Shown here: piece by piece, positions 35,351 to 51,484 of the stretch
How positions within the stretch are numbered: position 1 is the stretch's first letter
How the letters are laid out: every line of letters begins with the position of its first letter
Source: Bosea sp. NBC_00550
GTDB taxonomy: Bacteria > Pseudomonadota > Alphaproteobacteria > Rhizobiales > Beijerinckiaceae
Length of the DNA: 64,000 nucleotides
Direction: 5' to 3'
Assembly: GCF_026020075.1 (NCBI RefSeq)
Contig: NZ_CP102772.1
Location: 1,054,001-1,118,000 of the forward strand
Program-made: the position numbers and the translations under genes
Notes under the pieces: generated by a model
What the model saw: only the letters and a program-made list of their open reading frames with translations
Databases searched by the model: none
Told to the model about the DNA's origin: nothing

Positions 35351-35438
35351 GGCTTCCCCTCCGCCTTTTGCTGAAAACCGCTCGATGGCCGGCGCAGCGG
35401 CAAGCAGACGACGCGCCGCCCTCCCCAAGCAAGATGCG

Positions 35439-35461
35439 CCTGTTTCGTGAGAGGAAACAGG
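35439..35461 (-). promoter_or_regulatory. Operator A: palindrome upstream of the amino-acid ABC operon
   Basis: CCTGTTTC and GAAACAGG flank 7 bases in a perfect 8-7-8 palindrome. Reading leftward, TTGCTT, a -35-like hexamer, starts after exactly 9 bp (35432-35427). This is the same geometry as four other sites in the island. Confidence 0.65.
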
Positions 35462-35502
35462 ATATTCGCGGCCACGCTTCCCAGGCGCAGCTGCCGTCCG
35501 CA

Positions 35503-37008
35503 CTATCGATGCGGCGCGTCAGCGTGGATCGGAAAGACCGGCCCGCGCAAACGCGTATAGGGCAACCCGGCGATCTTGCTGGTGCAGGGGCCGGGCGTCG
35601 TCACCGTGAAGCTGCCCTTGGCGATCTTGTCGTAGGCTCGCCGATGCGCCACCGCCGCCTTGACGCCGATCGCCTTCAGCATCTCGGGATGGATGCCCTG
35701 CGAGCGGAACTGGCCGAGGTCGAAAGGCGGGGTCTTGCGGCTGGTCAGCAGGATGGTGACGCCGCGGGCCTCGACCACCACGCTCAGCCCCATGCTGAAG
35801 CGCGAGCCCTGCGAGGCGGCGAGGTGGCTATTCAGGTCCTCCAGCGCGAATTCCCCGTCGCTGGCGCTGACGAAGCGGGCCTCGATCTCGACCGGCCCTT
35901 CGGCAACGGCGCTGCCCTTGCCGCCGATCGAGAGCTTGCGGGTTTCTCCGGGTTTCGCGCCGGTCATGGTCGCGACGGCCGCCGGATCGGCGATGGCGAC
36001 CGCGCAATTCTCGACACGGTGGCGCAGGAAGGCCCGCAGCACCGAGGTGCCGTCTCCCGGCGCGCCGCCGCCGATATTGTCGGCCGGCTCGACCACGAGA
36101 TACGGGCCGCCCGGAGACCGCAGGATCTCCGCGACCGCGTCGTCGATGTCCCATTCCGCCGGCAGGCCGTGATCGCGCAAGGCGACGGCCGTCTCGGTCA
36201 GTTGGGCGAGAGCGTCCCGCGCTTCCGCTTCCGAGCCGGTGAAGGCGACTGAGAAGGCGACGCCGGCCTCGGCCACATCGGAGAAGGAATAGCCGCCGAT
36301 GACATTGGCGACCAGGATCGCCGGGTTCTGCTGCTCGATCAGCCGGGCCAGCGCCTCCAGGTCGCGCATGGGCCGGTCGGCGGTTCCGGTGCCGGTCGGA
36401 GGCCACATCACGGGCGCGTTGCAGGAGAGCATGCGCGGCAGGACGCCCTCCTTCAGGGCCTGCGCCAGCAGACGGGCCGAACGCACGGCGGATTCGCGAG
36501 CGTCCGTATGTGGGTTCTCGCGGTAGGCGACGAGGGCGTTGGCATGCTGTGCCATCGCCGCGGTGAAATTGGCATGCAGGTCGAAGACGCCGAAGACCGG
36601 CAGGGTCTCGCAGTCCGGCACGGAGCGGATACGGGCGAGCAGCGCGCCTTCGGGATCGGGGCAGGCGGTCGTGACCATAGCACCGTGCAGCGCGAGCCAG
36701 ATGCCATCGAGGCCTCCGGAGCTGAGCGCTGCCTTCAGCCCGGCATCGAATTCCGACAGGAAGCGCTCGAAGACGGCGTGATCGACGGTTCCGGCCGGCA
36801 GCGCCGTGTAGTCAACCGTCGGCACGACCTGCCACCCCTCGGCTTCGGCCACTTCGAGGAAGCCGTCGACCGTCGAGCCGTCGCCGCGCCGGCGCAACAG
36901 TTCCTCGCCGGTGCGGATGGTGAAATCGGCCAGCCCGGTAACCTCGTCGACGAAGCTATGCGTCTCGTGGAAGAGGGACCCCAGCAGGATCCGGCGAGGC
37001 TGCGGCAT
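35503..37008 (-). CDS. M81-family (MlrC-like) metallopeptidase 1
   Basis: The 501-residue protein has the MlrC N-terminal metallopeptidase domain (about 6-300) and the C-terminal MlrC domain. The putative zinc set is conserved: E15 (FHETHSF), H108 (LALHGAM), D143 and H145 (FDLHANFT), H167 (NPHTDARE), with the usual 22-residue spacing between the last two His. MlrC of microcystin degraders cleaves linear peptides containing the Adda beta-amino acid; other M81 members are largely uncharacterised. No signal peptide, so cytoplasmic. ATG 37008 has GGGAG about 10 bases upstream; the frame extends to 37086. It is divergent from a second M81 gene. Confidence 0.9.
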   Translation of the reverse strand: MPQPRRILLGSLFHETHSFVDEVTGLADFTIRTGEELLRRRGDGSTVDGFLEVAEAEGWQVVPTVDYTALPAGTVDHAVFERFLSEFDAGLKAALSSGGLDGIWLALHGAMVTTACPDPEGALLARIRSVPDCETLPVFGVFDLHANFTAAMAQHANALVAYRENPHTDARESAVRSARLLAQALKEGVLPRMLSCNAPVMWPPTGTGTADRPMRDLEALARLIEQQNPAILVANVIGGYSFSDVAEAGVAFSVAFTGSEAEARDALAQLTETAVALRDHGLPAEWDIDDAVAEILRSPGGPYLVVEPADNIGGGAPGDGTSVLRAFLRHRVENCAVAIADPAAVATMTGAKPGETRKLSIGGKGSAVAEGPVEIEARFVSASDGEFALEDLNSHLAASQGSRFSMGLSVVVEARGVTILLTSRKTPPFDLGQFRSQGIHPEMLKAIGVKAAVAHRRAYDKIAKGSFTVTTPGPCTSKIAGLPYTRLRGPVFPIHADAPHR

Positions 37009-37059
37009 GTTCTGCGAGGCTCCCTGAAGCCTCCTCATCTCGGCCGCTGCGCTGTTCCG

Positions 37060-37130
37060 AATCAAGCTGGCATTGTTCCGCTCCAAGGAACGCGAGTGCT
37101 TTGACAGGTTGCGCCAACTCCCCGTTTCAT
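37060..37130. promoter_or_regulatory. Operator B: shared palindrome between two divergent M81 genes
   Basis: GTTCC-N7-GGAAC occupies 37075-37091. Exactly 9 bp to the right is a perfect -35, TTGACA (37101-37106), with TTTCAT 18 bp further as a possible -10. Exactly 9 bp to the left, on the other strand, is TTGATT (37065-37060). One symmetrical site could thus control both M81 genes. Confidence 0.65.
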
Positions 37131-37187
37131 GGTGCCGGCCGGCGCGCCGGAGAGAGCGATGCCGGCGCAGATCGGGACTAGAGGCAG

Positions 37188-38648
37188 ATGCGCGTCTTCA
37201 CTGCGTCGCTGGCGACGGAAACCAACACCTTCGCGCCGCTCTTCGTCGATCGCAGCGCCTTCGAGGGAGCCTTTTATTGCCCACCGGGAACCCACCCGGA
37301 AACGCCGACCCTGTGCTCGGCGCCGATCGTCGCGGCGCGGCGTCGCGCCGCCAGCGAAGGCTACGAGCTGATCGAGGGAACCGCGACCTGGGCCGAGCCG
37401 GCTGGGCTTGTCTCGCAGGAGGGCTATGAAAGCCTGCGCGACGAAATCCTCGGGCAGCTCGTGGCGGCACTGCCGGTCGACATCGTCCTGCTCGGCCTGC
37501 ACGGCGCGATGGGGGCGCGCGGCTATGACGATTGCGAGGGTGACCTGATCGCGCGGGTGAGGGCGCTCGCCGGGCCGGATTGCGTGGTCGGAGCCGAGCT
37601 CGACATGCATTGCCATCTCACCGCGCAGATGGTCGAGGGTGCCGACATCATCGTCGCCTTCAAGGAGTTCCCGCACACGGACTTTCTCGCGCGGGCCGAG
37701 GACCTGCTGGAACTCTGCCTCCGGACGGCGCGCAAGCAGGTCAGGCCCGCCAGCGCAGTGTTCGACTGCCGCGGGCTCGCCGCCTTCATGACCAGCCGGG
37801 AGCCCGGCCGCAGCTTCGTCGACCGGATCATGGCGCTGGAAGGGAGGGACGGCATCCTGTCGATTTCGGTCGCGCATGGTTTTCAGGCCGCGGACGTCGC
37901 CGATGTCGGGACGAAGGTGCTGGTCATTACCGATGGCGACGAAGCGAAGGCGGCGGCGCTCGCCAGGGAACTCGGTCTCGAAATCCTGCGCTGGGGGAAC
38001 GGCGCCTCGCCGAAGCACTACAAGCCGGAGGAGGGCATCGCGGCGGCGCTCGAACTGGCGCAGCCGGGAAAACCCGTGGTCCTGGCCGATCGCTGGGACA
38101 ATCCGGGCGGCGGCGTGGCCGGCGATTCCTCGGTGATGGTCGAGGCGCTGCTGCGGCACCCGGACGTGCCCGCCGCGATAGGGGCGCTATGGGACCCCGT
38201 CGCGGTCGGCCTCTGCAGAGCCGCCGGCGTCGGGACCGAAATCCCGTTGCGGTTCGCCGGAAAGGCGGCGCCGTCCTCCGGCAAGCCGATCGATGCGACG
38301 GTCCAGGTCATCGGGACGACCGAAGACCTGCTGATCCCGTTCGCGCAGAGCTGGGTCTCGCTCGGCCCGGCCGCCGCGATCCGGGTCGGCCTGCTCGACA
38401 TCGTGCTCGCCTCGACACGGGCGCAGACCTTCAGCCCGCCCGTCTTCACCGATCTCGGCGTCGATCTTGCCGCCAAGAAGCTGGTCGTGGTGAAGTCCTC
38501 GAACCACTTCCACGCCGCCTTCGCGCCGATCGCAGCGAGCGTGCTCTATCTCGACAGCGGCGGGCCTTATCCGCCGGATGCGAGCAAGATCCCCTATACC
38601 AAGGTCAGGCGCCCCTTCTCTCCGCTGGATCCGAACCCATGGCTGTAA
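37188..38648 (+). CDS. M81-family (MlrC-like) metallopeptidase 2
   Basis: The 486-residue protein matches the M81 layout. Candidate metal ligands are E11 (ATETNTF), H105 (GLHGAM), D139 and H141 (ELDMHCHLT) and H163 (FPHTDFLARAEDL), again with 22-residue spacing. The C-terminal domain has ADRWDNPGGGVAGDSS, the block found in all three homologues here. It is cytoplasmic. GAGGCAG supports ATG 37188. Its end overlaps the start of the D-serine-dehydratase-like gene by 10 bases, so these two are coupled. Confidence 0.9.
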   Translation: MRVFTASLATETNTFAPLFVDRSAFEGAFYCPPGTHPETPTLCSAPIVAARRRAASEGYELIEGTATWAEPAGLVSQEGYESLRDEILGQLVAALPVDIVLLGLHGAMGARGYDDCEGDLIARVRALAGPDCVVGAELDMHCHLTAQMVEGADIIVAFKEFPHTDFLARAEDLLELCLRTARKQVRPASAVFDCRGLAAFMTSREPGRSFVDRIMALEGRDGILSISVAHGFQAADVADVGTKVLVITDGDEAKAAALARELGLEILRWGNGASPKHYKPEEGIAAALELAQPGKPVVLADRWDNPGGGVAGDSSVMVEALLRHPDVPAAIGALWDPVAVGLCRAAGVGTEIPLRFAGKAAPSSGKPIDATVQVIGTTEDLLIPFAQSWVSLGPAAAIRVGLLDIVLASTRAQTFSPPVFTDLGVDLAAKKLVVVKSSNHFHAAFAPIAASVLYLDSGGPYPPDASKIPYTKVRRPFSPLDPNPWL

Positions 38649-39934
38649 CCGCTTCTGCCGCCGCCCTGCCGCGCCTGTCGTTGGGCGAAATCGGGGACCA
38701 GCACCTCGACGATCTGATGAAGGGACTGCCGCCGGGCGCGAAGCTGCGGCTTGGCGATAGCTGGAGCGTTCTCGGCGGCGACATGCCGATGCCGCTCGCG
38801 GTGATCCGCGAGAGCGTCCTGCAGGCCAATAGCGCCTGGATGAGCGCTTTCGCCGGCGCCAACGATTTGCTGATCGCGCCGCATGGCAAGACGACGATGG
38901 CGCCGCAGCTCTTCGACCTGCAGATCGCCGACGGTGCCTGGGCGATCACCGTGGCGACGATGCAGCAGCTTGCCGTTGCCCGGCATTTCGGCGTGAAACG
39001 CGTCATCCTCGCCAACCAGCCGGTCGGCCCGCAAGAGATCGCGGCCTGTTTCGTCGCGCTGCGGGAACCTGGCTTCGAACTTTACTGCCTCGCCGACAGC
39101 GTCGCCGGGGTCGGGTTGCTCGCCGAGGCCGCGAAGGAGCATGCGGACGCCAACCCCCTGCGCATCTTCGTCGAGATCGGTTTCATGGGCGGGCGCACCG
39201 GCGCGCGGACCCGTGAGGAGGCACTGGCCGTGGCGCGCGCCGTCGCAGGCGCGCCGGGCTTGCGGCTCGCCGGCTTCGAATGTGTCGAGGGCCTGCACAG
39301 CGACACCGCCAATGCCGACAGGCTGCTCGGCGAAGTGGTCGCGGTTGCGACGGCTGCCGAGGGCGAGGGGCTCTTGGGGCCGGAACCGATAGTGCTCTCG
39401 GCCGGCGGGACCTCGCTGTTCGACCGGGTCGGCGAGGCGTTCAATGCGGCTTCGTTCAGCCGGCCGATCGTCAAGGTGCTGCGCTCGGGCTGTTATCTGA
39501 CCCATGACTCCACCGTCTATTCTGCGGCGTTCCGGCGGATCACGCTGGAGACCAGCCTGAAACTGCCGCCGGGCGGACTTGAGCCGGCTTTGGAGGTCTG
39601 GGCCTATGTCCAGTCGCGGCCGGAGCGCGGGCGCAGCCTGCTCACTGTCGGCAAGCGCGACATCAGCTTCGATTCCGGGATGCCGGTGCCCTTGCGCTGG
39701 TACCGGCCGGGCGGGGCGATGGCGCGGCCGGAGCCGATGCCGGCCGGGCATAATGTGCTGGCGCTCAACGACCAGCACTGCCATCTCGGCACGCCGGAGG
39801 AGAGCCCGCTGCAGGTCGGCGACATGGTCGCCTTCGGCATCGGCCATCCCTGCACGACCTTCGACAAATGGGCGCTGCTGATGCTGGTCGACGACGACTG
39901 GCGCGTGACCGGCGCCATCCGGACCTTCTTCTGA
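38639..39934 (+). CDS. D-serine dehydratase / D-threonine aldolase-like PLP enzyme
   Basis: The 431-residue protein has an alanine-racemase-type barrel with the PLP lysine K84 in LIAPHGKTTMAP. A C-terminal beta domain has zinc ligands H380 (LNDQHCHL) and C405 (GIGHPCTTFDKW), the hallmark of the DSD1/D-threonine aldolase family. These enzymes act on D-3-hydroxy amino acids or related D-amino acids, either by dehydration or retro-aldol cleavage. The overlap with the M81 gene suggests the peptidase releases its substrate. I cannot tell dehydratase from aldolase by eye. Confidence 0.85.
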   Translation: MAVTASAAALPRLSLGEIGDQHLDDLMKGLPPGAKLRLGDSWSVLGGDMPMPLAVIRESVLQANSAWMSAFAGANDLLIAPHGKTTMAPQLFDLQIADGAWAITVATMQQLAVARHFGVKRVILANQPVGPQEIAACFVALREPGFELYCLADSVAGVGLLAEAAKEHADANPLRIFVEIGFMGGRTGARTREEALAVARAVAGAPGLRLAGFECVEGLHSDTANADRLLGEVVAVATAAEGEGLLGPEPIVLSAGGTSLFDRVGEAFNAASFSRPIVKVLRSGCYLTHDSTVYSAAFRRITLETSLKLPPGGLEPALEVWAYVQSRPERGRSLLTVGKRDISFDSGMPVPLRWYRPGGAMARPEPMPAGHNVLALNDQHCHLGTPEESPLQVGDMVAFGIGHPCTTFDKWALLMLVDDDWRVTGAIRTFF

Positions 39935-39950
39935 AGGGAGCGTGCGGACT

Positions 39951-40005
39951 GTTCCTTCTGATGAAACCGGTGATCCTTGACGCGAATTCGGGCGCTTCCT
40001 AGCCT
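39951..40005 (+). promoter_or_regulatory. Operator C and promoter of the first dipeptide-type operon
   Basis: GTTCC-N7-GAAAC (39951-39967) is followed after 9 bp by TTGACG (39977-39982), a 17-bp spacer and TAGCCT (40000-40005). The first 30 bases align closely with operator D at 45419. The gene start is 151 bp downstream, leaving a long leader. Confidence 0.65.
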
Positions 40006-40155
40006 GCGTTCGAGAGCGGGAAGGCCGTCACCAATCCAATGGTAAGGCGGCCAAAGCATCGAGATCAGGAACCCGACGATGCCGCCCGCCCCTTGGAGCG
40101 GCAGGCAAGGATCGGGCCGGATGCGCCGGCAAGCGTCATTGTGGGAGGATCGTTC

Positions 40156-41748
40156 GTGACCGCACCGTCATTCCTCGGGGTCGATGGCGAAGGCGAGCAC
40201 GCGCCGTCGCGACGCAGTCTGCTGCAGCTGTTGACGGCCGGTGGCGCGGCCTTTGCCACGCCCGCCTTCTGGAGCGCGTTGGCGCACGGCCAGACCCCGG
40301 CCGCGGGCGGCACGCTGACGATCGGCGCCGATGCCGATCCGATCGGGCTCGACCCGGTCACGGTCAACGCCTTCTCGTCCTACGACTTCACCAGTCTGCT
40401 CTATACCGGCCTGCTGCGCTGGAACGCTCAGATGAAGGTCGAGCCCGATCTGGCGACGGGCTATCAGCAGCCAGATCCAAAGACTTACGTCTTCAAGCTC
40501 AGGCAGGGAGTGAAGTTCCATAACGGCAAGGGCTTCAGCGCCGAGGACGTGAAGCACACCTTCGACCGGATCATGAACCCGGCCACAGGCAGCCGCCTGC
40601 GCGCTTTGTATTCCAGCATCGAATCGGTGACGGTCGTAGATCCCTTGACGGTCAGGTTTCAGCTCAACGCGACCGATGCGGCCTTCCTCAGCAATCTCGC
40701 CAGCAACCCCAATGGCGCGATCGTCCCGGCCGGGGTAGACAACCTCGTCACCCAGCCGGTCGGCACCGGGCCCTTCGCTTTCGAGGCCTATCAGCCGAAC
40801 CAGCAATTCTCGCTGACGCGCTTCGGCGACTATTACGAGAAGGGCGAGCCCCATCTCGCGAAGGTGGTGTTCAAGTTCTACAAGGACCAGGCGACGCTGA
40901 CCTCAGCGCTGCGCTCCCGCGCCATTGACATGACCTGGGTGAAGGACCCGAAGGTGGCGACCGCCATCTCGCGCGCTTCGCCGAATTTCGTCTCTGCGCC
41001 GGGGCAGACATCGCGCACCTTCCCGATCTGGCTGAACATGAAGGCCAAGCCCCTGAACGACGTGAAGGTGCGGCGCGCGCTCAGCCTGGCAACGGACCGC
41101 AAGGCCTGCCTCGACACCGTGCTCGGCGGCTCCGGCAAGGTCGGGGCGATGATCCCGGAAAGCCACGTCGGCGGCTATGACGGTACGGGCGAATTGCCGT
41201 ACTACAAGCACGATCCGGCTGCTGCGAAGGCGCTTCTCGCCGAAGCCGGCTATCCCGGTGGCATCGATCTCGGCGACTATATCGTCGTCGCCGCCAATCC
41301 GCTCGACGTCGCCTGCGCCCAGATCCTGCAGCAGCAATGGCAGGCGGCCGGGATCACCGTGAAGCTGGTGCCGATGGAGACCGCGCCGCTCCTCGCCAAA
41401 TGGGCGAGCGGCGACTGGCCGACTCTGCTTTCCGTCGCGCTGTCCTGGACGCCCGATCCCGACGGGGTGTTCCAGTACATCACCTCGACCAGCGGCTACG
41501 GCAGGGCGATGGGCTCGAACGATCCCGACCTCGACAAGATGATCGCCGAGGCGCGGGCCGAACTCGACACGGGCAAGCGCGCAGCGAAGAATCTCGATAT
41601 CCAGCGGCGCATCGCCGACAACGCTTATGTCATCCAGGTCTACCAATACCCGCTGCGTTGGGAGATCTGGTGGAACTATGTCCAGGGCTATGTGCCGCTG
41701 GCGGCGAACATCCGCTCCTTCGTGCGCACGACATGGCTGAAGAAGTAG
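40156..41748 (+). CDS. Family-5 (dipeptide-type) ABC substrate-binding protein 1
   Basis: The 530-residue protein starts with GTG 40156 (GGGAGG 8 bases upstream; the open frame reaches 40039). It has a twin-arginine signal (SRRSLLQLLTAGGAAFATPA). The SBP_bac_5 fold follows: GGTLTIGADADPIGLDP, LLYTGLLRW, YVFKLRQGVKFHNGKGFSAE, DVKHTFDRI and NMKAKPLNDVKVRRALSLAT. Such proteins bind oligopeptides, glutathione or other large polar ligands. Tat export suggests it folds in the cytoplasm. It leads a five-gene transporter operon. Confidence 0.92.
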   Translation: MTAPSFLGVDGEGEHAPSRRSLLQLLTAGGAAFATPAFWSALAHGQTPAAGGTLTIGADADPIGLDPVTVNAFSSYDFTSLLYTGLLRWNAQMKVEPDLATGYQQPDPKTYVFKLRQGVKFHNGKGFSAEDVKHTFDRIMNPATGSRLRALYSSIESVTVVDPLTVRFQLNATDAAFLSNLASNPNGAIVPAGVDNLVTQPVGTGPFAFEAYQPNQQFSLTRFGDYYEKGEPHLAKVVFKFYKDQATLTSALRSRAIDMTWVKDPKVATAISRASPNFVSAPGQTSRTFPIWLNMKAKPLNDVKVRRALSLATDRKACLDTVLGGSGKVGAMIPESHVGGYDGTGELPYYKHDPAAAKALLAEAGYPGGIDLGDYIVVAANPLDVACAQILQQQWQAAGITVKLVPMETAPLLAKWASGDWPTLLSVALSWTPDPDGVFQYITSTSGYGRAMGSNDPDLDKMIAEARAELDTGKRAAKNLDIQRRIADNAYVIQVYQYPLRWEIWWNYVQGYVPLAANIRSFVRTTWLKK

Positions 41749-41782
41749 GCTCCGCCTGCCGCCTCGCGGCGGAGGCCTGCCG

Positions 41783-42724
41783 ATGACGCGTTTCGTCCTC
41801 GGGCGCCTTGCCTGGATGGCGGCGATCCTGCTCGGCGTCTCCTTCGTCGCCTTCATGCTGATGCGCGCGATTCCGGGCGATTTTGCCATCGCGGCGGCCG
41901 GTTCGCAGAGCGTGGCGCCGGATGTACTGGCGACGATCCGCCGCGATCTCGGGCTCGAGCAGCCCTTGATGACGCAATATCTGTCATGGCTCGGGGCTGC
42001 GCTCACCGGCGATCTTGGCATTTCCTTCGTGACGCGCCGGCCGGTGCTGGGCGAGCTGCTCGATCGGCTCGCCGTTACCTTCCAGCTCACGTTGATCGCC
42101 GCCATCATGGCCGTCGTGATGGGCATCGCCACAGGGCTGGCCGCGGCGCGGCTGCGCGGCGCGGTCGATTGGCTGGTCCGGCTCTGGAACGGGCTGATGC
42201 TGGCGGTGCCGAACTATGTCGTCGCGACGCTGATCGTGCTGCTCTTCGGCCTCTACTTCCCCGAGATCACGGTGCTCGGCTACACGCCCTTTCTCGAAAA
42301 CCCGCTCGCCAATCTCTGCAGCATGCTGCTGCCTGCCTTCGCGCTGGCGCTCGCCGTCTCGGTGACCATCGCCGAGAACACGCGCGCCGCCGTGCTCGAG
42401 GTCGCCAATCAGGACTTCGTCATGGTCGCCCGCGCCAAGGGGCTGAGACCCGGCGCGATCCTGCGCGATTACCTGATGCGCAACGCGCTGACGCCTGTGA
42501 TCACCGCCGCGGGCCTCAAGATCGCGGCGCTGCTCGGCGGCAGCATCCTGGTCGAGACCATCTTCGCCATTCCTGGCATGGGGCAGTACCTCTTCGATTC
42601 CATCAACAGCCGCGACTACCCGGTTATCCAGGCGATCGTGCTGGTCGCAGCCGGCATCGTCGTGCTGGTCAACACCATGATCGACATCGCCTATGCGCGG
42701 GTCGATGCGCGGGTGCAGATGTGA
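41783..42724 (+). CDS. Dipeptide-type ABC permease (DppB-like) 1
   Basis: The 313-residue permease has the N-terminal helix GRLAWMAAILLGVSFVAFML, LGLEQPLMTQYLSWL and FGISF-like GDLGISFVTRRPV. Its EAA loop reads VARAKGLRPGAILRDYLMRN, and it ends in VETIFAIPGMGQYLFDSI. It is coupled to the next permease by a GTGA overlap. Confidence 0.92.
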   Translation: MTRFVLGRLAWMAAILLGVSFVAFMLMRAIPGDFAIAAAGSQSVAPDVLATIRRDLGLEQPLMTQYLSWLGAALTGDLGISFVTRRPVLGELLDRLAVTFQLTLIAAIMAVVMGIATGLAAARLRGAVDWLVRLWNGLMLAVPNYVVATLIVLLFGLYFPEITVLGYTPFLENPLANLCSMLLPAFALALAVSVTIAENTRAAVLEVANQDFVMVARAKGLRPGAILRDYLMRNALTPVITAAGLKIAALLGGSILVETIFAIPGMGQYLFDSINSRDYPVIQAIVLVAAGIVVLVNTMIDIAYARVDARVQM

Positions 42725-43602: not shown

Positions 43603-44411
43603 AAGGGCCGCTTCTCCGGGTGCGCGACCTGACCGCGACGGTAACGACACGGCGCGAGATCATACAGGCCGTGCGCGGCATCTCCTTCGACATCAACGCC
43701 GACGAGGCGGTCGGCTTCGTCGGCGAATCTGGCTGCGGCAAGAGCGTCACCGCCAAGGCCCTGATGCGGCTGGCACCCGAGGGTGCCTCGATCGGGCTCG
43801 GCGGCTCGGTCGCGTTCTGGGGGCAGGAGCTTCTCGGGCTGGGCGAGGAGGAGATGCGCGATTTGCGCGGCCGGCGCATCGCCATGGTCTTCCAGGACCC
43901 TATGACCTCGCTCAACCCGGTGATGAGCATCGGCGCGCAGATGGGCGACATGCTGCGCCGCCATCTCGGCTTGTCGGGCAAGGCAGCGCGCGAGCGCAGC
44001 GTCGAACTGCTCGATCTCGTCGGCATTCCCGATCCGGCTGGTCGCATCGAGGATTTTCCGCATCAGTTCTCGGGCGGACAGCGCCAGCGCGTGCTGATCG
44101 CCATCGCGATCTCCTGCGAGCCGGACTTGCTGATCGCCGACGAGCCGACCACGGCGCTCGACGTCACCGTGCAGGCGCAGATCCTGCGGCTCTTGCTGCG
44201 CCTCAGGGAAGAGCGCGGCATGGCGCTCATGCTGATCACCCATGATTTCGGGGTCGTTGCGGGCATGGTCGACCGCGTCAACGTGATGTACCGCGGCGAG
44301 ATCGTCGAGGCCGGACCGGTGGACGAGATCTTTGCAGCGCCGCAGCACGCCTATACCCGGGCTCTGCTCGATGCCGTGCCGCGCCTGCAGGATGCGAGGG
44401 CGGTCCGATGA
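43599..44411 (+). CDS. Dipeptide-type ABC ATPase (DppD-like)
   Basis: The 270-residue ATPase has Walker [21 protein letters not shown]-loop [20 protein letters not shown], signature [15 protein letters not shown] and Walker [21 protein letters not shown]. It lacks the roughly 50-residue C-terminal oligopeptide/iron-sulfur extension seen in many DppD proteins (it ends soon after [13 protein letters not shown]). It overlaps both neighbours by 4 bases. Confidence 0.92.
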
Positions 44412-45412
44412 CCGCGGCACCCGGGCTTCGCGACCTGACTGGGGAGCTCTCGATCGAGCCCGTGCTGCAAGTCCGCGACCTCTCTGTGCAGTTTCCGGGA
44501 CGGCGCGGCGCGGCGCCGGTCACCGCCGTGGAGCGCCTCTCCTTCGATATCGCGCCGGGGCAGACGCTCGGTCTCGTCGGCCAGTCCGGCTCAGGCAAGA
44601 CGACGGCAGGCCGCGCCATCCTGCAACTCCAGAAGGCGAGCGGGGGCTCGGTCAGGCTGCTCGGGCAGGAGTTGACCACGATGCGCGCCGGCGAACTGCG
44701 CCGGATGCGCCGGCACATGCAGTTCGTCCTGCAGAACCCCTATTCGAGCCTGCATCCGCGCATGACCATCGGCCAGATCCTGAGCGAGCCCCTGCAGGTC
44801 CACCGCAGCGTACCGGCGAACCAGATGCGCGCGCGGGTCGCGGAGCTGCTGGAACTGGTGAACCTCGATCCGGCGATGGTGCGGCGCTATCCGCACGAAT
44901 TCTCCGGCGGGCAGCGGCAGCGTGTCGTCATCGCGCGGGCGCTGGCGGTCAATCCGGATTTCGTCGTCTGCGACGAGCCGGTCTCGGCACTCGACGTGCG
45001 CACGCAGGCGCAGATCGTCGCGCTCCTGCAATCGCTGCAGGAGAAGCTGGGGCTGTCCTATCTCTTCATCGCGCACGACCTCGCCATCGTCAGGGAGATG
45101 GCGCATCGGGTCGCCGTGATGTTCCGTGGCCGCATCGTCGAGATGGGTAGTGCGCGCCAAGTGTATGACAGCCCGGCTCATCCCTATACGCGATTGCTGC
45201 TCGACGCCGTGCCGGTGCCCGATCCTGCCCTTCAGCGCGAGCGTCTGAGGCGGGTCCCGCCGGATCTGCGCTTCCTCGAAGGCAATGGTGGTGGCTGCGT
45301 CCACGGGGTCGATCACAGTCGCGCCGGCACGCCCGAATGGCACGAGGTCTCGGAAGGGCATGGCGTCTCCTGCCGCTACTGGCCGGCGGCGAGAGCGCAG
45401 GCTGTTGCCTGA
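44408..45412 (+). CDS. Dipeptide-type ABC ATPase (DppF-like)
   Basis: The 334-residue ATPase has Walker A LVGQSGSGKTTAGRAILQL, Q-loop FVLQNPYSSLHPRMTIGQIL, signature [15 protein letters not shown], Walker B FVVCDEPVSALDVRTQAQIV and a C-terminal oligopeptide-transporter extension from about residue 270. With the DppD-like ATPase it energises the permeases. It may also serve the second, ATPase-less system at 47143-50550. Confidence 0.92.
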   Translation: MTAAPGLRDLTGELSIEPVLQVRDLSVQFPGRRGAAPVTAVERLSFDIAPGQTLGLVGQSGSGKTTAGRAILQLQKASGGSVRLLGQELTTMRAGELRRMRRHMQFVLQNPYSSLHPRMTIGQILSEPLQVHRSVPANQMRARVAELLELVNLDPAMVRRYPHEFSGGQRQRVVIARALAVNPDFVVCDEPVSALDVRTQAQIVALLQSLQEKLGLSYLFIAHDLAIVREMAHRVAVMFRGRIVEMGSARQVYDSPAHPYTRLLLDAVPVPDPALQRERLRRVPPDLRFLEGNGGGCVHGVDHSRAGTPEWHEVSEGHGVSCRYWPAARAQAVA

Positions 45413-45418
45413 CGTCAT

Positions 45419-45474
45419 GTTCCTTCAGGTGGAACGTTGAATCCTTGACGTGAAATAGTTGCCGCACCTACGCT
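45419..45474 (+). promoter_or_regulatory. Operator D and promoter of M81-3 and second dipeptide-type operon
   Basis: GTTCC-N7-GGAAC (45419-45435) is followed after 9 bp by TTGACG (45445-45450) and, 18 bp later, TACGCT (45469-45474). It begins 6 bp after the dppF-like stop, so a new transcript probably starts here. Start codon 45601 lies about 125 bp downstream. Confidence 0.65.
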
Positions 45475-45600
45475 TTTCGAAGATTTCGCGGGCTCGTCTG
45501 CTTCGTGACCGGGACCGGCGCAGCCGATGCCTGCAAGCTTCTGACAAGCCGTTCGCCCGGCGTGGCCCGGGTGCTCGAAGCCGCTATCCGGGAGGTCGCT

Positions 45601-47109
45601 GTGCGTCTGGCGTTGATCCACATCGTTCAGGAAACGAACGACTTCAATCCGGTGCTGACCACGCTCGATGATTTCGAGGCGTTCGGCCTCTATGAAGGCG
45701 AGGACATCGCCCGGCACTTCGGTGAGATCGGACAGATCGGCGGGCATTTCGCCGCGATCCGCGAATCCGGGCTCGATATCGAGACGGTCCCGATCATCCG
45801 GGCCTGGGCGGTGGCCGGCGGGCGCATCTCGCGCGAGGCCTTCGACTTCTTCCAGGCGAAGATCCGGGCCGGCCTCGAGAATGTCGGGCCGATCGACGGG
45901 CTGGTGCTGCACCTGCACGGCGCCTGCGCGGCGGAGGGGGTAGACGATGTCGAGGGTGAACAGGCGGAGCTTTGCCGCCAGATCCTCGGGCCGGACGTGC
46001 CCATCCTGCTCGGGCTCGATCACCACGCCAATGTCACCCACAAGATCATGGCCAACTGCACGGCCATCGTCGGCCACCGCACCCAGCCGCATGACGTGTT
46101 CGACACCGGCAAGGTCGGGACCGAGGTGCTGCTGCGCATCCTGACCGGCAAGCTCAAGCCCGTCATGGCCTGGCGCAAGATCCCGCTGCTCTCGCATCAG
46201 GAGCAGTTCCTGACCTCGAAAGGGCCGATGAAGATCTGGTTCGACCGGGCGCGGGCACTGGAGGCCGACCGCCGCGTGCTGCAGGCCTCGAACTATCCGA
46301 TGCAGCCCTGGCTCGATGTCGCAGAGGGCGGGTGGTCGACGATCGTCGTCACCGATGGCGATAAGGCTTTGGCCGAGACGCTGGCGGACGAGCTAGCCGA
46401 CCTCGCCTGGTCGATGCGCGATGACTTCCAGATTCGTGAAGCCGTCTCGGTCGATGACGCCGTGCGCAAGGCCGATGCGGCCGAGCGCGGCATGGTCGTG
46501 GTCAGCGATACCGGCGATACCGTCTTCGGCGGCGCGGCCGGCGACAGCAACCTGCTGCTCGAAGCGATGCTGCGGCTCGGCATCAGGAGCAAGGCGCTGA
46601 TCCCGCTGATCTCGCCCAAGGCCGTCGCGACGCTGACCGCGGCGGGCGAGGGCGCCGAGGTGACCCTGCCGCTCGGCGGCGATGCGGCGACCGCCTTCTT
46701 CAAGCCGCTGACGGTGACGGGCAGGGTGCGGAAGCTCGGAGGCGGGTCGATCCCGCTGAACTTCAATCATCAGCCCGAGGTCGACATGGGCCGGGTCGCC
46801 GTCTTCGATGTCGGGCCGGTGACGCTCCTGATCTCGGAATTGCGCGGCGTCGCGGGCAATGTGCCCGACGTTTACGAGGCCTTCGGCATCGACCTCTCCG
46901 ACTACAAGATGGCCGTGCTCAAGACGGCCTCGAACTTCCAGTATTTCGACCGTATCGCCTCCGGCCTCGTGCGTGCCGACACGCGCGGGCCGGGACAGTC
47001 GGATGTGTTCACCCTGCCGTGGCAGCGGATTCCGCGCCCGGTCTATCCGTTGGAGACAATAAGCGACTGGCGGGCGCATTCGTCCCAGCCGGGAGCGGGG
47101 ACGAGCTGA
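45601..47109 (+). CDS. M81-family (MlrC-like) metallopeptidase 3
   Basis: The 502-residue protein is the third M81 homologue. Candidate metal ligands are E11 (IVQETNDFN), H106 (LHLHGACA), D140 and H142 (GLDHHANVTH) and H164 (TQPHDVFDTGKVG), spaced as in the other two. In place of the NPGGG block it has DTGDTVFGGAAGDSNLLLEAM. This divergence suggests a different substrate from copies 1 and 2. Start GTG 45601 has GGGAGG 5 bases upstream; the frame extends to 45505. It is followed by a family-5 binding protein. Confidence 0.9.
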   Translation: MRLALIHIVQETNDFNPVLTTLDDFEAFGLYEGEDIARHFGEIGQIGGHFAAIRESGLDIETVPIIRAWAVAGGRISREAFDFFQAKIRAGLENVGPIDGLVLHLHGACAAEGVDDVEGEQAELCRQILGPDVPILLGLDHHANVTHKIMANCTAIVGHRTQPHDVFDTGKVGTEVLLRILTGKLKPVMAWRKIPLLSHQEQFLTSKGPMKIWFDRARALEADRRVLQASNYPMQPWLDVAEGGWSTIVVTDGDKALAETLADELADLAWSMRDDFQIREAVSVDDAVRKADAAERGMVVVSDTGDTVFGGAAGDSNLLLEAMLRLGIRSKALIPLISPKAVATLTAAGEGAEVTLPLGGDAATAFFKPLTVTGRVRKLGGGSIPLNFNHQPEVDMGRVAVFDVGPVTLLISELRGVAGNVPDVYEAFGIDLSDYKMAVLKTASNFQYFDRIASGLVRADTRGPGQSDVFTLPWQRIPRPVYPLETISDWRAHSSQPGAGTS

Positions 47110-47142
47110 CGCGAAACCGAAGCACAACAAGAGGGGAAAGCG

Positions 47143-48684
47143 ATGACAAAGCTGTCGCGACGTCAAATCTGCATGACCGGCCTTGCCCTTGCGGGGGCGG
47201 CCCCGCTGCTGGCGGCCTTGCCGGCTTCCGCCCAGCAGCTCAAGGGCGGCACTCTGCGTGTCGCCGTGCTGAACGAGCTGGCGAACTATGATCCGCAGCA
47301 GCTCTCCACGGTCAATTTCCATGTCATCAAGAACCTCTACGACAGCCTGATCGAGTACACGCCGGAGGGGAAGCCGGAGCCGAGCCTGGCGACCGGGTGG
47401 ATAATCGCGCCGGACAAGACGTCGGTGACGCTGAAGCTGCGCGACGGCGTGACCTTCCATAGCGGCACGCCGTTCAAGTCCGACTCCGTGGTCGCCACCC
47501 TGCAGAAGGGCGCCGATCCCAAGCGCGGCAAGAACGTCTTTTCGACCATGGCGATCGTGAAGGATTGGTCGGCGCCGGACGAGCGCACGGTCACGATCAA
47601 CTTCAAGGCGCCGGTGCCGGACCGGCAGATTCTAGACCTCCTGCAGTTCCTGATCCCGATTGACCCAAAAGGCATCGACACGGTCGAGACAGTTCCGGCC
47701 GGCACCGGCCCGTACACGCTGGTGAGCCGTGCGGTCGGGCAGGGGCTCGTTCTCAAGGCCAACCCGAAATACTGGCGCGAGAAGCAGCCGATCGCGCAGG
47801 ACCTCGTCTTCACCGTCTTCAGCGAGGATGCGGCGGCGACCGCGGCGCTGGAGTCGGGCGCCGTCGACATCGTCTACAACGGCTCTTCGCGCAGCGCGGT
47901 CAGGCTCAAGGGCGCCGGCTATCAGGTCTTCGCCGGCCCCGGCCAGCTCGTCCAGGTCTTCCGGATCAACTCGACGCGCGTTCCCTTCCGCAACAAGTCG
48001 TTCCGGCAGGCCTTCAATTATCTGATGGACCGCGGCAGCATCCTGCGCGTCGGTTATGCCGGCATGGGGCAGGTGGTCGCCTTGCCCTGGGCGCCGGCGA
48101 GCCCGGCCTTCGATGCCAGCTACATCAAGACCTACTCCTTCGATCTCGACAAGGCGAAGAAGCTGCTCGCGGCCTCCGGTCTTTCGGCGGACGAGATGAA
48201 GGGCTGGAAGATCCTGGTGGACGGCAGCAACGAGGCTTCCGTGACGATCAGCCAGATCGTCCAGGGCTCGCTCGCCAAGGCCGGTATCCCGATCGAACTC
48301 GATATGCGGCAGGGCGCGGAATACGTCACGGCGCTGCTCGGCGGCGATTTCGCCGCGACTTTCGGCGCTGTCGGCAACGTCCAGAAGTTCCCGTCGCGGG
48401 TCACGACCAACTCGATCTACCGGACGTCGCAGAACCCGGTCCTCAAGGACCCCCACCCGCACCCGGACTATGTCGCCGCGATCGCCAAGGTCGACGGTGC
48501 CGCGGGCGGAGAGGCCGAGGTCAAGGCCGCCTACGACAACCTCAACCGGGTCATGGTGGACGAGGCTTTCGCGATCCCGACCAACTCTTACGATGTCGGC
48601 CTGATCGCCGCCTCGGAGAAGATCGGCGGGGTTACGCTCGACATCGACAACCTGTTCGTCGCGCGCACCATCGGGTTCAAGTGA
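47143..48684 (+). CDS. Family-5 (dipeptide-type) ABC substrate-binding protein 2
   Basis: The 513-residue protein has a Tat-like signal (LSRRQICMTGLALAGAAPLL) and the SBP_bac_5 fold: GGTLRVAVLNELANYDPQQL, NLYDSLIEYTPEGKPEPSLA, VTLKLRDGVTFHSGTPF and RVPFRNKSFRQAFNYLMDR. GAGGGGAAAG precedes ATG 47143. It lies 33 bp after M81-3, so the peptidase and this binding protein are probably one transcript. Confidence 0.92.
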   Translation: MTKLSRRQICMTGLALAGAAPLLAALPASAQQLKGGTLRVAVLNELANYDPQQLSTVNFHVIKNLYDSLIEYTPEGKPEPSLATGWIIAPDKTSVTLKLRDGVTFHSGTPFKSDSVVATLQKGADPKRGKNVFSTMAIVKDWSAPDERTVTINFKAPVPDRQILDLLQFLIPIDPKGIDTVETVPAGTGPYTLVSRAVGQGLVLKANPKYWREKQPIAQDLVFTVFSEDAAATAALESGAVDIVYNGSSRSAVRLKGAGYQVFAGPGQLVQVFRINSTRVPFRNKSFRQAFNYLMDRGSILRVGYAGMGQVVALPWAPASPAFDASYIKTYSFDLDKAKKLLAASGLSADEMKGWKILVDGSNEASVTISQIVQGSLAKAGIPIELDMRQGAEYVTALLGGDFAATFGAVGNVQKFPSRVTTNSIYRTSQNPVLKDPHPHPDYVAAIAKVDGAAGGEAEVKAAYDNLNRVMVDEAFAIPTNSYDVGLIAASEKIGGVTLDIDNLFVARTIGFK

Positions 48685-48727
48685 TGCGGCTGGCGGAAAC
48701 GCGGCGGCGCCTCATCGGCGCCGCCTG

Positions 48728-49606
48728 ATGCGGGAGAGCCTGGCCTCGCTCGGGCGCGTGCTGCGCCGGCTGCTGGCCCGGCGTGGCGCGGCGCTGAGCC
48801 TCGCCTTCCTCGCCCTGGTCGCGCTCACGGCGATCTTCGCGGGCATGCTGCCGCTTGACCCGCTGAGGCAGAGCATCGCGGATTCGCTGCAGCCGCCTTC
48901 GCCGGAATACTGGTTCGGCACCGACGAACTCGGCCGGGATATTCTCGCCCGCGTCGTCTATGGCGCGCGAACCTCGCTGGTCACGGCCTTCGGCGCGGTC
49001 CTCATCGCGGCGCTGATCGGCGTGCCCGTCGGGCTCATCGCCGGCTTCTACGGCGACTGGCGGGACTCGCTCCTGATGCGCTGCATCGACGTGCTGCTCG
49101 CCCTGCCGAACATCCTCTTCGCCATGGCGCTGATCGCGGTGCTCGGACGCAGCCAGGGGGCGGCGCTGATCGCGGTCGGCGTCGCCGGCATTCCCGGTTT
49201 CGCGCGCATCGCGCGGGCGCAGGTCATGGCACTGCGCCAGCTCGATTTCGTCATGGCGGTGCGCGGCTTCGGCGGGCGCCCCGGCTACATCATGTTCCGA
49301 ACGATCCTGCCCAACGCCTTGAGCCCATTGGTAGTTCAGGCGATCGTGCTCGCCTCGATCGCGATCCTGCTCGAGGCGGCGCTCGCCTTCCTCGGAGTCG
49401 GCGTGCCGCCGCCAACACCGAGCTGGGGCGAGATGCTGCGCACCGGCAAGTCCTATCTCTACGAGGCTCCCACCTATGCGGTGCTGCCCGGCCTCGTCCT
49501 GACACTGACGATCCTGTCCTTCGACACGATCGGCCGGGCCCTGACCTCGCTGCTCGACCGCAACGAGACCGACGCCTCCGGCGAGACGATCGGGGCCAGG
49601 CGATGA
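48728..49606 (+). CDS. Dipeptide-type ABC permease (DppC-like) 2
   Basis: The 292-residue permease has YWFGTDELGRDILARVVYGA, RTSLVTAFGAVLIAALIGVP, a variant EAA loop (VMAVRGFGGRPGYIMFRTIL) and LAFLGVGVPPPTPSWGEML. It precedes its DppB partner, the reverse of the usual order. Its stop overlaps that gene by 4 bases. Confidence 0.92.
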   Translation: MRESLASLGRVLRRLLARRGAALSLAFLALVALTAIFAGMLPLDPLRQSIADSLQPPSPEYWFGTDELGRDILARVVYGARTSLVTAFGAVLIAALIGVPVGLIAGFYGDWRDSLLMRCIDVLLALPNILFAMALIAVLGRSQGAALIAVGVAGIPGFARIARAQVMALRQLDFVMAVRGFGGRPGYIMFRTILPNALSPLVVQAIVLASIAILLEAALAFLGVGVPPPTPSWGEMLRTGKSYLYEAPTYAVLPGLVLTLTILSFDTIGRALTSLLDRNETDASGETIGARR

Positions 49607-50550
49607 CGGCCTATATCCTGCGCCGCCTCCTGCAGATGCTGCCCGTGCTGCTGGCCGCCTCGTTTGCGATCTTCGCGATGATTTATGCGGTGCCAGGCGG
49701 GCCGGTCGCGGTCATCGTCGGAGAGAATGCGGGGCCGGAGGAGATCGCTGCGGCCATCCAGCGCTACGGGCTCGACCGCCCGATGGTCGTGCAGTATCTC
49801 GACTGGCTCGGCCGGGCGCTGACCGGCGATTTCGGCCTGTCGCTGCATAGCCGCCAGCCGGTGCTACAACTGATCGGCGAACGGCTGCCGGCGACACTGC
49901 AATTGGCGCTGGCGGCGATCGTCGTGGCCCTGGCGATCGGCATCCCCGTGGCGATCGCGAGCGCGGTCCGGCCGAATTCCTGGCTCGACCGGCTGCTCAG
50001 CGGCTGGAGCGCATTGGCGCTGGGCGTACCGACCTTCTGGCTCGGCATCCTGCTGATCCTGCTCTTCGCCGTGGAGTTGCGCTGGCTGCCCTCGGCCTCG
50101 CGCCATGTGCCGCTCTGGGAGTCTCCGGCTGACGCGCTGCGCAGCCTGGCGCTGCCGGCGATCACGCTCGGCACCTATGTCTCGGGCATCCTGGCGCGGT
50201 TCCTGCGGGCTTCGTTGATCGGCGAGGCGCGGGCCGACTATGTCCGCACCGCCCGCGCCAAGGGTGTGCCGGAAAGCCGCATCGTCGGGCTGCACATCAT
50301 GCGCAATGCGCTTTTGCCCTTCGTCACCATCGTCGGCTTGATGATGGCGAATTTCATCGGCGGGGCGGTGGTGACGGAGGCGGTCTTCACCTATCCGGGG
50401 CTGGGGCGCCTGCTGATCCAGGCGATCAGCACGCGCGACTATCCCCTGATCCAGGGTTGCATCCTGGTGATCCTGATCGCCTACATGCTGATCAACCTGA
50501 CGGTCGACGTGCTCTATGCCTGGATCGACCCGCGGATCGAATATCGATGA
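49603..50550 (+). CDS. Dipeptide-type ABC permease (DppB-like) 2
   Basis: The 315-residue permease has YILRRLLQMLPVLLAASFAI, YGLDRPMVVQYLDWLGRAL, GDFGLSLHSRQPV, an EAA loop (VRTARAKGVPESRIVGLHIM) and VTEAVFTYPGLGRLLIQAIS. No ATPase gene follows; the next gene is a convergent IclR regulator 8 bp away. Confidence 0.92.
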   Translation: MTAYILRRLLQMLPVLLAASFAIFAMIYAVPGGPVAVIVGENAGPEEIAAAIQRYGLDRPMVVQYLDWLGRALTGDFGLSLHSRQPVLQLIGERLPATLQLALAAIVVALAIGIPVAIASAVRPNSWLDRLLSGWSALALGVPTFWLGILLILLFAVELRWLPSASRHVPLWESPADALRSLALPAITLGTYVSGILARFLRASLIGEARADYVRTARAKGVPESRIVGLHIMRNALLPFVTIVGLMMANFIGGAVVTEAVFTYPGLGRLLIQAISTRDYPLIQGCILVILIAYMLINLTVDVLYAWIDPRIEYR

Positions 50551-50558
50551 ACGGGGCT

Positions 50559-51350
50559 TCAGCGCGCAGCGGCCGGCGGATGCGAACCGAGCCGGGTCGA
50601 GATGCCGGCAGCAACCTCGCGCAGACGCGTCCCGACCTTCGCCGCCAGCGAATGCGGCATGCGCATCAGGGGGGCGGAGACGCTGAGCGCCGCGACGGGA
50701 TAGCCGTCCTCGTCGAGGATCGGCACGCCGACACACATGGCGCCGTCCTCGTTCTCGCCCATTTCGGTGGCATAGCCGGTCCGCGCCACCTGACGGAGCT
50801 GGCGCTCGATCTCCTCGCGCTCCAGCAAGGTGCGCCCGGTGCGCTCTGTCAGGGGCAGGTCGAGCTGGCGCTGACGTTCGGCTTCGGGGAGGAAGGCCAG
50901 GATCGCCTTGCCGAGCGCGGTCGAATGCATCGGATGGCTTTCGCCGATGCGCGCCTGCATCCGCAGCGAACGATTGGCCTCGATCAGGTCGATATAAACG
51001 ACCGTGCCGTTGCCCTTCACGGCCAGGTTCACCGTCTCGTTGAATTCGTGCATCAGCTCGATCATGGCCGGGCGCGCAAGCTCGCGGACCTTGCTGACGC
51101 TGGCATCGGCACGGGCGATGGCGCGCAGCTGGGGGCCGAGATTGTAGCGGTCGGTAGCTCGGTTGTGGTCGAGAAAGCCGGCGGCGGTGAGCGTCTGCAG
51201 ATAGCGGAAGGTGGTCGTCTTCGGAATCCGCAGCTCCTTGCTGACGGCTGTGAGCGCGATCTCGTGCCCGTGGCGGGCCACCAGTTCCAGCACCTTCAGC
51301 GCCTTCATCACCGGCTGCACGACGTAGGGGTTGTCGGGTTTCCTGGTCAT
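50559..51350 (-). CDS. IclR-family transcriptional regulator of the peptide island
   Basis: The 263-residue protein has a winged helix (residues 10-70: VMKALKVLELVARHGHEIAL, LRIPKTTTFRYLQTLTAAGF) and an IclR effector domain (about 85-250, with HPMHSTALGKAILAFLPEAE and MGENEDGAMCVGVPILDEDG). It is divergent from the aminotransferase gene and an operator-like site (51402-51418) lies between them. Its central position among genes with the same palindrome makes it the best candidate for the island regulator. The operator location upstream of -35 would fit an activator. Confidence 0.9.
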   Translation of the reverse strand: MTRKPDNPYVVQPVMKALKVLELVARHGHEIALTAVSKELRIPKTTTFRYLQTLTAAGFLDHNRATDRYNLGPQLRAIARADASVSKVRELARPAMIELMHEFNETVNLAVKGNGTVVYIDLIEANRSLRMQARIGESHPMHSTALGKAILAFLPEAERQRQLDLPLTERTGRTLLEREEIERQLRQVARTGYATEMGENEDGAMCVGVPILDEDGYPVAALSVSAPLMRMPHSLAAKVGTRLREVAAGISTRLGSHPPAAAR

Positions 51351-51401
51351 GGCCGCTCCGGTCGTCCAGCTCGATCAGCTTCGCATAGCCAGCCCGACGG
51401 A

Positions 51402-51433
51402 ATTCCGCAAGACGAAACCAGCGTTCCTTTACG
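51402..51433 (+). promoter_or_regulatory. Operator E between the IclR gene and the aminotransferase
   Basis: ATTCC-N7-GAAAC (51402-51418) differs from the consensus at one position. TTTACG, a -35-like hexamer, starts after exactly 9 bp (51428-51433), pointing to the aminotransferase start at 51485. No clear -10 is seen. Confidence 0.5.
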
Positions 51434-51484
51434 CGGTGCGGAGGGTCTGGTCTGGTCGGGGCAATAGCAGCGGAGGCAACGCAC

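Follow-up and report, generated by a model that had tools for sequence, protein, structure and literature searches.

What reads a set of nearly identical palindromes in the promoters of a peptide and amino acid gene island, and does it turn those promoters on or off? These questions are raised by a locus of Bosea sp. NBC_00550 that we analyzed within a 64,000-nucleotide stretch of its genome (contig NZ_CP102772.1, positions 1,054,001 to 1,118,000 of the forward strand), referred to here as the window. An earlier note had described five GTTYC-N7-GRAAC palindromes in this island, each with a -35-like hexamer beginning 9 bp away, as the candidate regulon of an IclR-family gene that lies among them. 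Here, we find that the regulon is a well-supported new case of a published class of IclR operators, and that the IclR protein encoded at 50559-51350 is, to judge from the sequence, very probably the regulator of the sites. A second, weaker palindrome accompanies the first at several promoters, and its placement over the -35 hexamer bears on whether the regulator activates or represses.

The exact composite of palindrome and -35 hexamer is confined to the island

A pattern search of the window recovered four exact GTTYCN7GRAAC palindromes, starting at 35442, 37075, 39951 and 45419, and a fifth at 51402 with one mismatch (ATT in place of GTT), just as the note had claimed. We call this palindrome box 1 and name the promoters after the genes that they precede, i.e., SBP3 (35442), M81a and M81b (which are divergent and have the site at 37075 in common), SBP5a (39951), M81c (45419) and AT3 (51402). 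The hexamer starts exactly 9 bp from all five palindromes, and does so on both sides at 37075; the weakest in the window is TTGCTT at SBP3, which matches TTGACA at 3/6 positions. When up to one mismatch was allowed, the palindrome occurred 10 times in the window versus 4.29 expected, a count that 1/100 shuffles reached, and four exact palindromes within 10 kb have a Poisson probability of ~7e-8 (calculated from the genome rate for a region picked post hoc). A matrix made from the aligned box 1 sites, with the second palindrome excluded from matrix building, gave its top five scores in the window to the five box 1 sites.

The palindrome alone is common. Across the 6.27-Mb genome, we found 23 exact copies versus 20 for a reversed control, which is background, and the palindrome by itself was thus rejected as a genome-wide marker. 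The composite RTTYCN7GRAACN9TTNNC has four matches with zero mismatches in the whole genome, all of them in the island, and is at control level when up to two mismatches are allowed (220/222 versus 237/199). Just one of the 19 off-island exact palindromes has a hexamer matching at least 4/6 positions at 9 bp on either side, where chance predicts ~1. Y7 and R11, in the inner part of the palindrome, occur at 5/5 island sites versus 3/19 off-island copies. These results show that the distinctive features are the clustering (4/23 copies in 10 kb) and the composite of palindrome, 9 bp and hexamer. Off-island copies make up 19/23 of the exact palindromes. The earlier note had counted against its own proposal a motif that is common in the genome without the 9-bp offset; this was found in part, in that no hexamer of 4/6 or better stands there in 18/19 off-island copies, but because these copies occur at background number we do not count them as a refutation of the regulon. 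A chance origin of the sites was rejected because the exact composite is absent elsewhere in the genome and the arms are conserved in relatives, as follows.

The 9-bp offset is conserved in Bosea relatives

We compared the promoters across relatives after dropping identical sequences, which reduced 29 rows to 21 for AT3 and for M81c and 19 rows to 18 for M81a and for M81b, and left all nine SBP5a and four SBP3 rows in place (loci L016-L032 and L035-L046 represent overlapping genome sets, and a single site supplies both the M81a and the M81b row, so that 91 promoter rows stand for 73 sites). In 17/17 close iclR loci (84-97% identity), both the iclR-adjacent site, with its one mismatch, and the exact M81c site lie 9 bp from TTTACR or TTGACS. 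The operator between iclR and AT3 was present in 29/29 rows (21 distinct), and its arms were identical in 21/21 distinct rows. Pairwise identity within promoter sets was 0.87-1.00 for the arms, 0.46-0.82 for N7, 0.44-1.00 for the link and 0.30-0.60 for the flanks, with the 0.82 of N7 at the 51402 site being higher than at the other sites.

The hexamer at 9 bp was TTTACG/A at AT3 (21/21), TTGACG at SBP5a (9/9) and TTGACG, TTGACC or TTGAAC at M81c (18, 2 and 1 of 21 rows). At M81b it was TTGACA in 17/18 distinct rows, and at M81a TTGA(T/A)Y in 16/18 and TTGCYY in 2/18, while SBP3 had an exact box and TTG at 9 bp in 4/4 rows (TTGTTC in three and TTGCTT in one). All AT3, M81c and SBP5a rows (100%) had a hexamer matching at least 4/6 positions at 9 bp, as did 94% of M81a and M81b rows; the SBP3 count was 0/4, and the next-best offset reached 7% on average over the six promoters. 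Furthermore, Y7 and R11 were present in 91/91 distinct promoter rows, versus the 3/19 off-island copies noted above. The proposed check of related genomes thus bore out the candidate regulon: arms and the 9-bp offset are kept at six promoters while the inner seven bases vary more, which, along with the lack of any exact composite elsewhere in the genome, supports a set of sites under common control.

A comparison of 41 Bosea genomes gave a similar picture. Searching them for GTCAA-N{0,25}-palindrome returned 48 matches versus 16 for the reversed control, and the gap was 9 bp in 33/48. Of these, 31/33 lay within islands of 11 genomes, and the two that were off-island (in G002 and G018) are inside open frames and chance-like; the remaining 15 matches had scattered gaps, and one of them comes from an island site that has two GTCAA. 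iclR was found in 12/41 genomes and an M81c orthologue (at least 84% identity) in the same 12, with a thirteenth genome having only a 32% M81c match. In the twelfth genome, G025, 9 bp separate an exact M81c box from TTGAAC and a one-mismatch M81a/b box from TTGACA, and the box at iclR also has one mismatch.

A second palindrome is centered 21 bp downstream of the first

We also detected a weaker palindrome, box 2, centered 21 bp downstream of box 1 at AT3, M81c and SBP5a, with a half-site at M81a. In a scan of 142 offsets (-60 to +82 relative to box 1), +21 gave the best mean, 1-bp register slips came next and the rest were far behind; offsets 15-27 other than 21 yielded nothing comparable in the window. 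Window p-values ranged from 0.0003 to 0.0014 at the three promoters (Table 1), were marginal at M81a (0.026) and SBP3 (0.038) and reached 0.078 at M81b. Combining the five window sites by Fisher's method gave 1.3e-8, where the M81b row was excluded because its site is common with M81a. Over all rows, mismatches out of 10 numbered 1-3 at AT3, 2-3 at M81c, 3-4 at SBP5a and 2-4 at M81a, and the same position had 5-8 at M81b and 4-7 at SBP3 (i.e., no box 2 at either). Tandem pairs at 21 bp with at most four summed mismatches occur in the window only at the five sites.

At AT3, M81c and SBP5a the spacer of box 2 is the -35 hexamer itself, so the 9 bp are made up of the left arm of box 2 (5 bp) and a link of 4 bp. 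The offset is more than a by-product of box 2, however, since M81b, SBP3 and the promoters of two distant loci described below (L048 and L051, with 9/10 mismatches at the box 2 place) keep the 9 bp without it. The SBP5a and M81c promoters are alike around box 1, box 2 and the -35, as they would be if the promoters were recent duplicates whose likeness reflects descent and not function. We consider this explanation very improbable. Arms remain at 0.87-1.00 identity where flanks, N7 and link have fallen to the lower values given above, promoters of either orientation are involved, and the same plan recurs at distant loci whose targets differ; promoter duplication alone was rejected on the diverged flanks and the better conservation of the arms in relatives.

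Box 1 of the fifth site probably also contains the -35 of iclR. Read in the iclR direction, a -35-like TTGCGG at 51410-51405 (minus strand) occupies bases 9-14 of box 1 and is TTGCGG in 20/21 rows; YAT follows 17 bp on in 18/21 rows and 18 bp on in two, with L035 having YAT at neither spacing. A -35 at this place would account for N7 being better conserved at 51402 than at any other site, and suggests that occupancy of box 1 shuts off iclR. Box 2 and this probable promoter are additions to what the earlier note had described.

The sites belong to a published IclR operator class

The motifs of IclR-family group 1 include GTTYCRYW3RYGRAAC, of the subgroup GTT-11-AAC (Suvorova and Gelfand 2021, PMC8222616). 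The Bosea sites match this class in their 17-bp GTTYC...GRAAC, in Y7/R11 and in their 21-nt tandem. According to excerpts of that study, tandem sites 18-22 nt between centers occur in 94/181 IclR orthologous groups, IclR proteins mostly regulate their own gene plus one or two adjacent operons, and DdpA-DppBCD and HisJM-GlnQ transporter COGs are among the co-occurring sets (PMC8222616). The 21-nt tandem of Bosea is found at AT3, M81c and SBP5a, as a half-site at M81a, and at neither M81b nor SBP3, in line with a feature that is common in the class and not required. What Bosea adds are M81, D-serine dehydratase-like (DSD) and class-III aminotransferase genes as members and the fixed 9 bp to the -35, none of which appears in the excerpted text of PMC8222616; its main text does not contain the words MlrC, Bosea or Rhizobi. 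A limited search of open-access literature (titles and abstract starts) found no description of this regulon. As the kind of operator has already been described, the surprise is modest.

IclR is very probably the regulator of the sites

The earlier note had named the IclR protein (50559-51350) as regulator, and this assignment is supported by the strict co-occurrence of gene and island, by operators at distant orthologues, by a common recognition helix and by the motif class. The protein matches Pfam HTH_IclR (47.5 bits, cut-off 22) and IclR_C (134.9 bits, cut-off 24). We compared it with 10 distant orthologues (47-56% identity; E-value limits 1e-80 and 1e-68) from two other families, which came from 1/297 genomes of the order, 1/385 of the class beyond its own order, and 5/199 and 5/23 genomes of the two families (order and class finds included again). 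A site within one mismatch lies beside iclR in 8/10 of these loci; the site of L048 follows iclR downstream and precedes an M81c homologue. In 7/10 (L034, L047, L049 and L052-L055), the intergenic region of iclR holds the highest-ranking 21-bp tandem pair of the whole locus, with four or fewer summed mismatches; L048 and L051 have no such pair. L034, L047 and L049 have TTTACA at 9 bp, L048 has TTGACA there and L051 has TTTACT, ahead of an SBP5a homologue. In L053-L055, both boxes lie upstream of a -35-like TTGACC that is 2 bp past box 2, and L052 has ATGGCC there.

A recognition helix of the form [LIM]P[KR]T[TS]xFRYLxTL is common to the distant orthologues and is not found in the eight IclR paralogues compared. 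Moreover, a site within one mismatch is present between -300 and +30 in 7/10 distant orthologues versus 0/8 placed paralogues. The paralogue list (E <= 1e-8) held 12 loci, eight of which were placed by tblastn and compared, and L060, L061, L065 and L066 were left out of the control as having no tblastn placement; the list omits the IclR gene of L072, which has a GTT-11-AAC-type site.

Several observations weigh against a single regulon read by this IclR protein. The center of the Bosea sites is not AT-rich (W at 25/60/25%), unlike the published consensus. At M81b, the TTGACA of L024 is 8 bp away, the SBP3 hexamer matches TTGACA at only 3/6 positions in 4/4 rows, and G025 has TTGAAC at M81c and one-mismatch boxes elsewhere. 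Among the distant loci, no site with at most one mismatch was found in L034 or L050, and the best tandem pair of L050, though also in the iclR intergenic region, has six summed mismatches, which is chance level (counting the pairs of the island, the 64-kb window has 15 tandem pairs with at most six). One genus supplied L052-L055 and another L048 and L051, so the ten are not independent cases, and the different arrangement in L053-L055 means that the 9-bp offset is not universal. Finally, another IclR-family gene of the same genome (L072, C1 ~3684392; IclR_C and HTH_IclR), located beside a hydantoinase gene, is a possible source of cross-talk: it has a 21-bp tandem of the GTT-11-AAC type (L072 1501-1538; L070 1517-1554), so the motif alone cannot name the regulator.

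This last gene is one of the reasons to consider that the sites serve another regulator, for example a LysR-type or a different IclR protein, with iclR as a passenger. The LysR-type operator rule is T-N11-A, and TTYC-N7-GRAA fits it; the window also holds a second IclR gene, at 60030-60794. We judge this explanation improbable. A domain scan of 28 open reading frames (27 between 32 and 57 kb and one at 60 kb, some of them wrong-frame) found no other regulator family and no LysR gene. In two other families, the operator is found with iclR orthologues of ~50% identity and beside other targets, and the paralogue counts given above point away from a different IclR protein. The gene at 60030-60794 was rejected as the regulator, as its product is 28% identical to the 50559-51350 protein and has a different recognition helix, and no site with at most one mismatch lies upstream of it.

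The best NCBIfam model for the Bosea IclR is BhcR (NF045644), at 171.8 bits versus a cut-off of 350, so the protein is not BhcR and its membership in that group was rejected. It also scores below the cut-offs of the KdgR (158.3/275), AllR (97.4/406), PcaR/PcaU/PobR (134.3 bits versus 284.75) and IclR (113.3 bits versus 380) models.

Activation with autorepression is the preferred mode of action

How would IclR act at these sites? We lean toward a reading in which it activates the target promoters and represses iclR, in both cases through the IclR operators; activation by itself is plausible. An IclR dimer would occupy the strong box 1, centered 18 bp upstream of the -35 start, and the fixed 9-bp offset would put it on a set face beside RNA polymerase. 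A second dimer may bind the weaker box 2, 21 bp (two helical turns) downstream, at AT3, M81c and SBP5a. With a substrate-derived ligand bound, the catabolic promoters would be activated, and without ligand box 2 would tune or block access to the -35. Box 1 over the putative -35 of iclR would provide negative autoregulation. We infer each of these steps (i.e., IclR binding, the dimer of dimers, activation, autoregulation and the ligand) from the arrangement of the sites.

Among IclR-family proteins, MhpR and PcaU/PcaR are activators of aromatic catabolism whose sites lie at the -35 or upstream of it. BhcR of Paracoccus denitrificans is an IclR-type activator with a divergent gene and a candidate palindrome upstream of the target -35, and repression of its own gene was proposed by the authors (PMC11323563, in excerpt). 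It has one target cluster (glyoxylate) versus six promoters in Bosea, and the excerpt gives no fixed multi-promoter offset. Activation is favored by promoters that keep the 9 bp without box 2 (M81b in 17/18 rows, SBP3 with TTG in 4/4, L048 and L051) by L053-L055, where both boxes are upstream of TTGACC, and by the example of BhcR, the closest relative that has a name.

The same protein and operators could instead make a pure repressor, with a tetramer over both boxes that blocks the -35 until ligand releases it, like E. coli IclR at aceBAK, and we take this to be a substantial though lesser possibility. IclR_C is present in both proteins (the Bosea protein matched PDB 2o99 and 1td5), and a 1996 report by Pan et al. 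is said, from its title, to place the E. coli IclR site over the aceBAK promoter. E. coli IclR is a tetrameric repressor (PMC11323563, in excerpt). Three Bosea promoters have their -35 framed by box 2, as is TTTACA in L034, L047 and L049, an arrangement that fits a repressor too, and the -35 hexamers are strong, near-consensus ones (TTGACA/TTGACG) that do not look activator-dependent. On the other hand, M81b, SBP3, L048 and L051 lack box 2 and still keep the 9 bp, box 1 alone stops 9 bp before the -35 and would occlude it poorly, and occlusion has no need of fixed phasing.

Activation with iclR autorepression, our preferred reading, could also be one side of a two-way switch, an idea that we put forward only as a speculative one. 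Box 1, 9 bp from the -35, would activate, box 2 bracketing the -35 would block, and box 1 would cover the iclR -35. The complete plan is seen at iclR-side promoters in Bosea and two other families, and at other targets box 1 is kept alone, in its 9-bp phase. If so, one IclR protein would activate or repress depending on whether box 2 is present. The unusually constant geometry (9 bp, 21 bp, a -35 inside box 2, and promoters with and without box 2 in a single regulon) offers a natural series for studying how IclR proteins choose between activation and repression.

The genes of the island

The features are listed in Table 1; candidate -10 elements were read by eye at 17-18 bp spacing and are weak. 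The three M81 genes, DSD, the aminotransferase, two peptide ATP-binding cassette (ABC) transporters and one amino acid ABC transporter suggest that the island serves to utilize peptides containing D- or beta-amino acids. The best matches of AT3 are glutamate-semialdehyde aminomutases, with D-phenylglycine and beta-phenylalanine aminotransferases lower. The sites and IclR thus make up a concrete regulator-operator pair for an apparently uncharacterized catabolic island with three M81 (MlrC-type) peptidases.

Table 1 Operators and genes of the island, in window coordinates (PLP, pyridoxal phosphate)
Feature	Position	Strand	Details
Box 1, SBP_bac_3 (polar amino acid ABC) promoter	35442..35458	-	-35-like TTGCTT 35432-35427
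Box 1, common to divergent M81a (-) and M81b (+)	37075..37091	.	TTGACA 37101-37106 (+); TTGATT 37065-37060 (-)
Box 1, SBP5a-dppBCDF operon	39951..39967	+	-35 TTGACG 39977-39982; candidate -10 TAGCCT 40000-40005 (by eye)
Box 1, M81c-SBP5b-oppCB operon	45419..45435	+	-35 TTGACG 45445-45450; candidate -10 TACGCT 45469-45474 (18-bp spacer, by eye)
Box 1 between iclR (-) and class-III aminotransferase (+)	51402..51418	.	-35 TTTACG 51428-51433; candidate extended -10 TCTGGT 51451-51456 (by eye)
Box 2 of M81a, one good half-site (GGAAC)	37054..37070	-	Half-site 98% pairwise identity; full site marginal, p=0.026
Box 2 of SBP5a (GATCC-TTGACGC-GAATT), contains -35	39972..39988	+	p=0.0014
Box 2 of M81c (AATCC-TTGACGT-GAAAT), contains -35	45440..45456	+	p=0.0003; right arm 95% pairwise identity
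Box 2 of AT3 (GTTCC-TTTACGC-GGTGC), contains -35	51423..51439	+	p=0.0010
SBP_bac_3 amino acid binding protein (start inferred)	34505..35350	-	Then permeases 33827-34486 and 33166-33819; ATPase 32390-33169
M81a, M81/MlrC-type metallopeptidase (start inferred)	35503..37008	-	
M81b, M81 metallopeptidase	37188..38648	+	Best solved match microcystinase C, PDB 7ylq, 382 bits
DSD, D-serine dehydratase-like PLP enzyme (start inferred)	38639..39934	+	
Complete peptide ABC operon: SBP_bac_5, dppB, dppC, two ATPases	40039..45412	+	
M81c, SBP_bac_5, oppC, oppB	45505..50550	+	Without its own ATPase
IclR-family regulator, 263 aa	50559..51350	-	HTH_IclR and IclR_C
AT3, class-III aminotransferase	51485..52816	+	Glutamate-semialdehyde / D-phenylglycine / beta-phenylalanine aminotransferase group

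The dpp operon (39951-45412), which stands between DSD and M81c, is present in 10/17 loci (L016-L032) and missing in seven. In the loci without it, the DSD gene directly adjoins the M81c operator, which places the junction near the operator/promoter copy. The M81c orthologue of G038 (C12:106552-108069) has one in-frame TAG, and its operator is intact. In L036, two copies of an RraA-like gene (10264-10932 and 14548-15216), identical at all 669 bases, lie near the iclR/aminotransferase pair.

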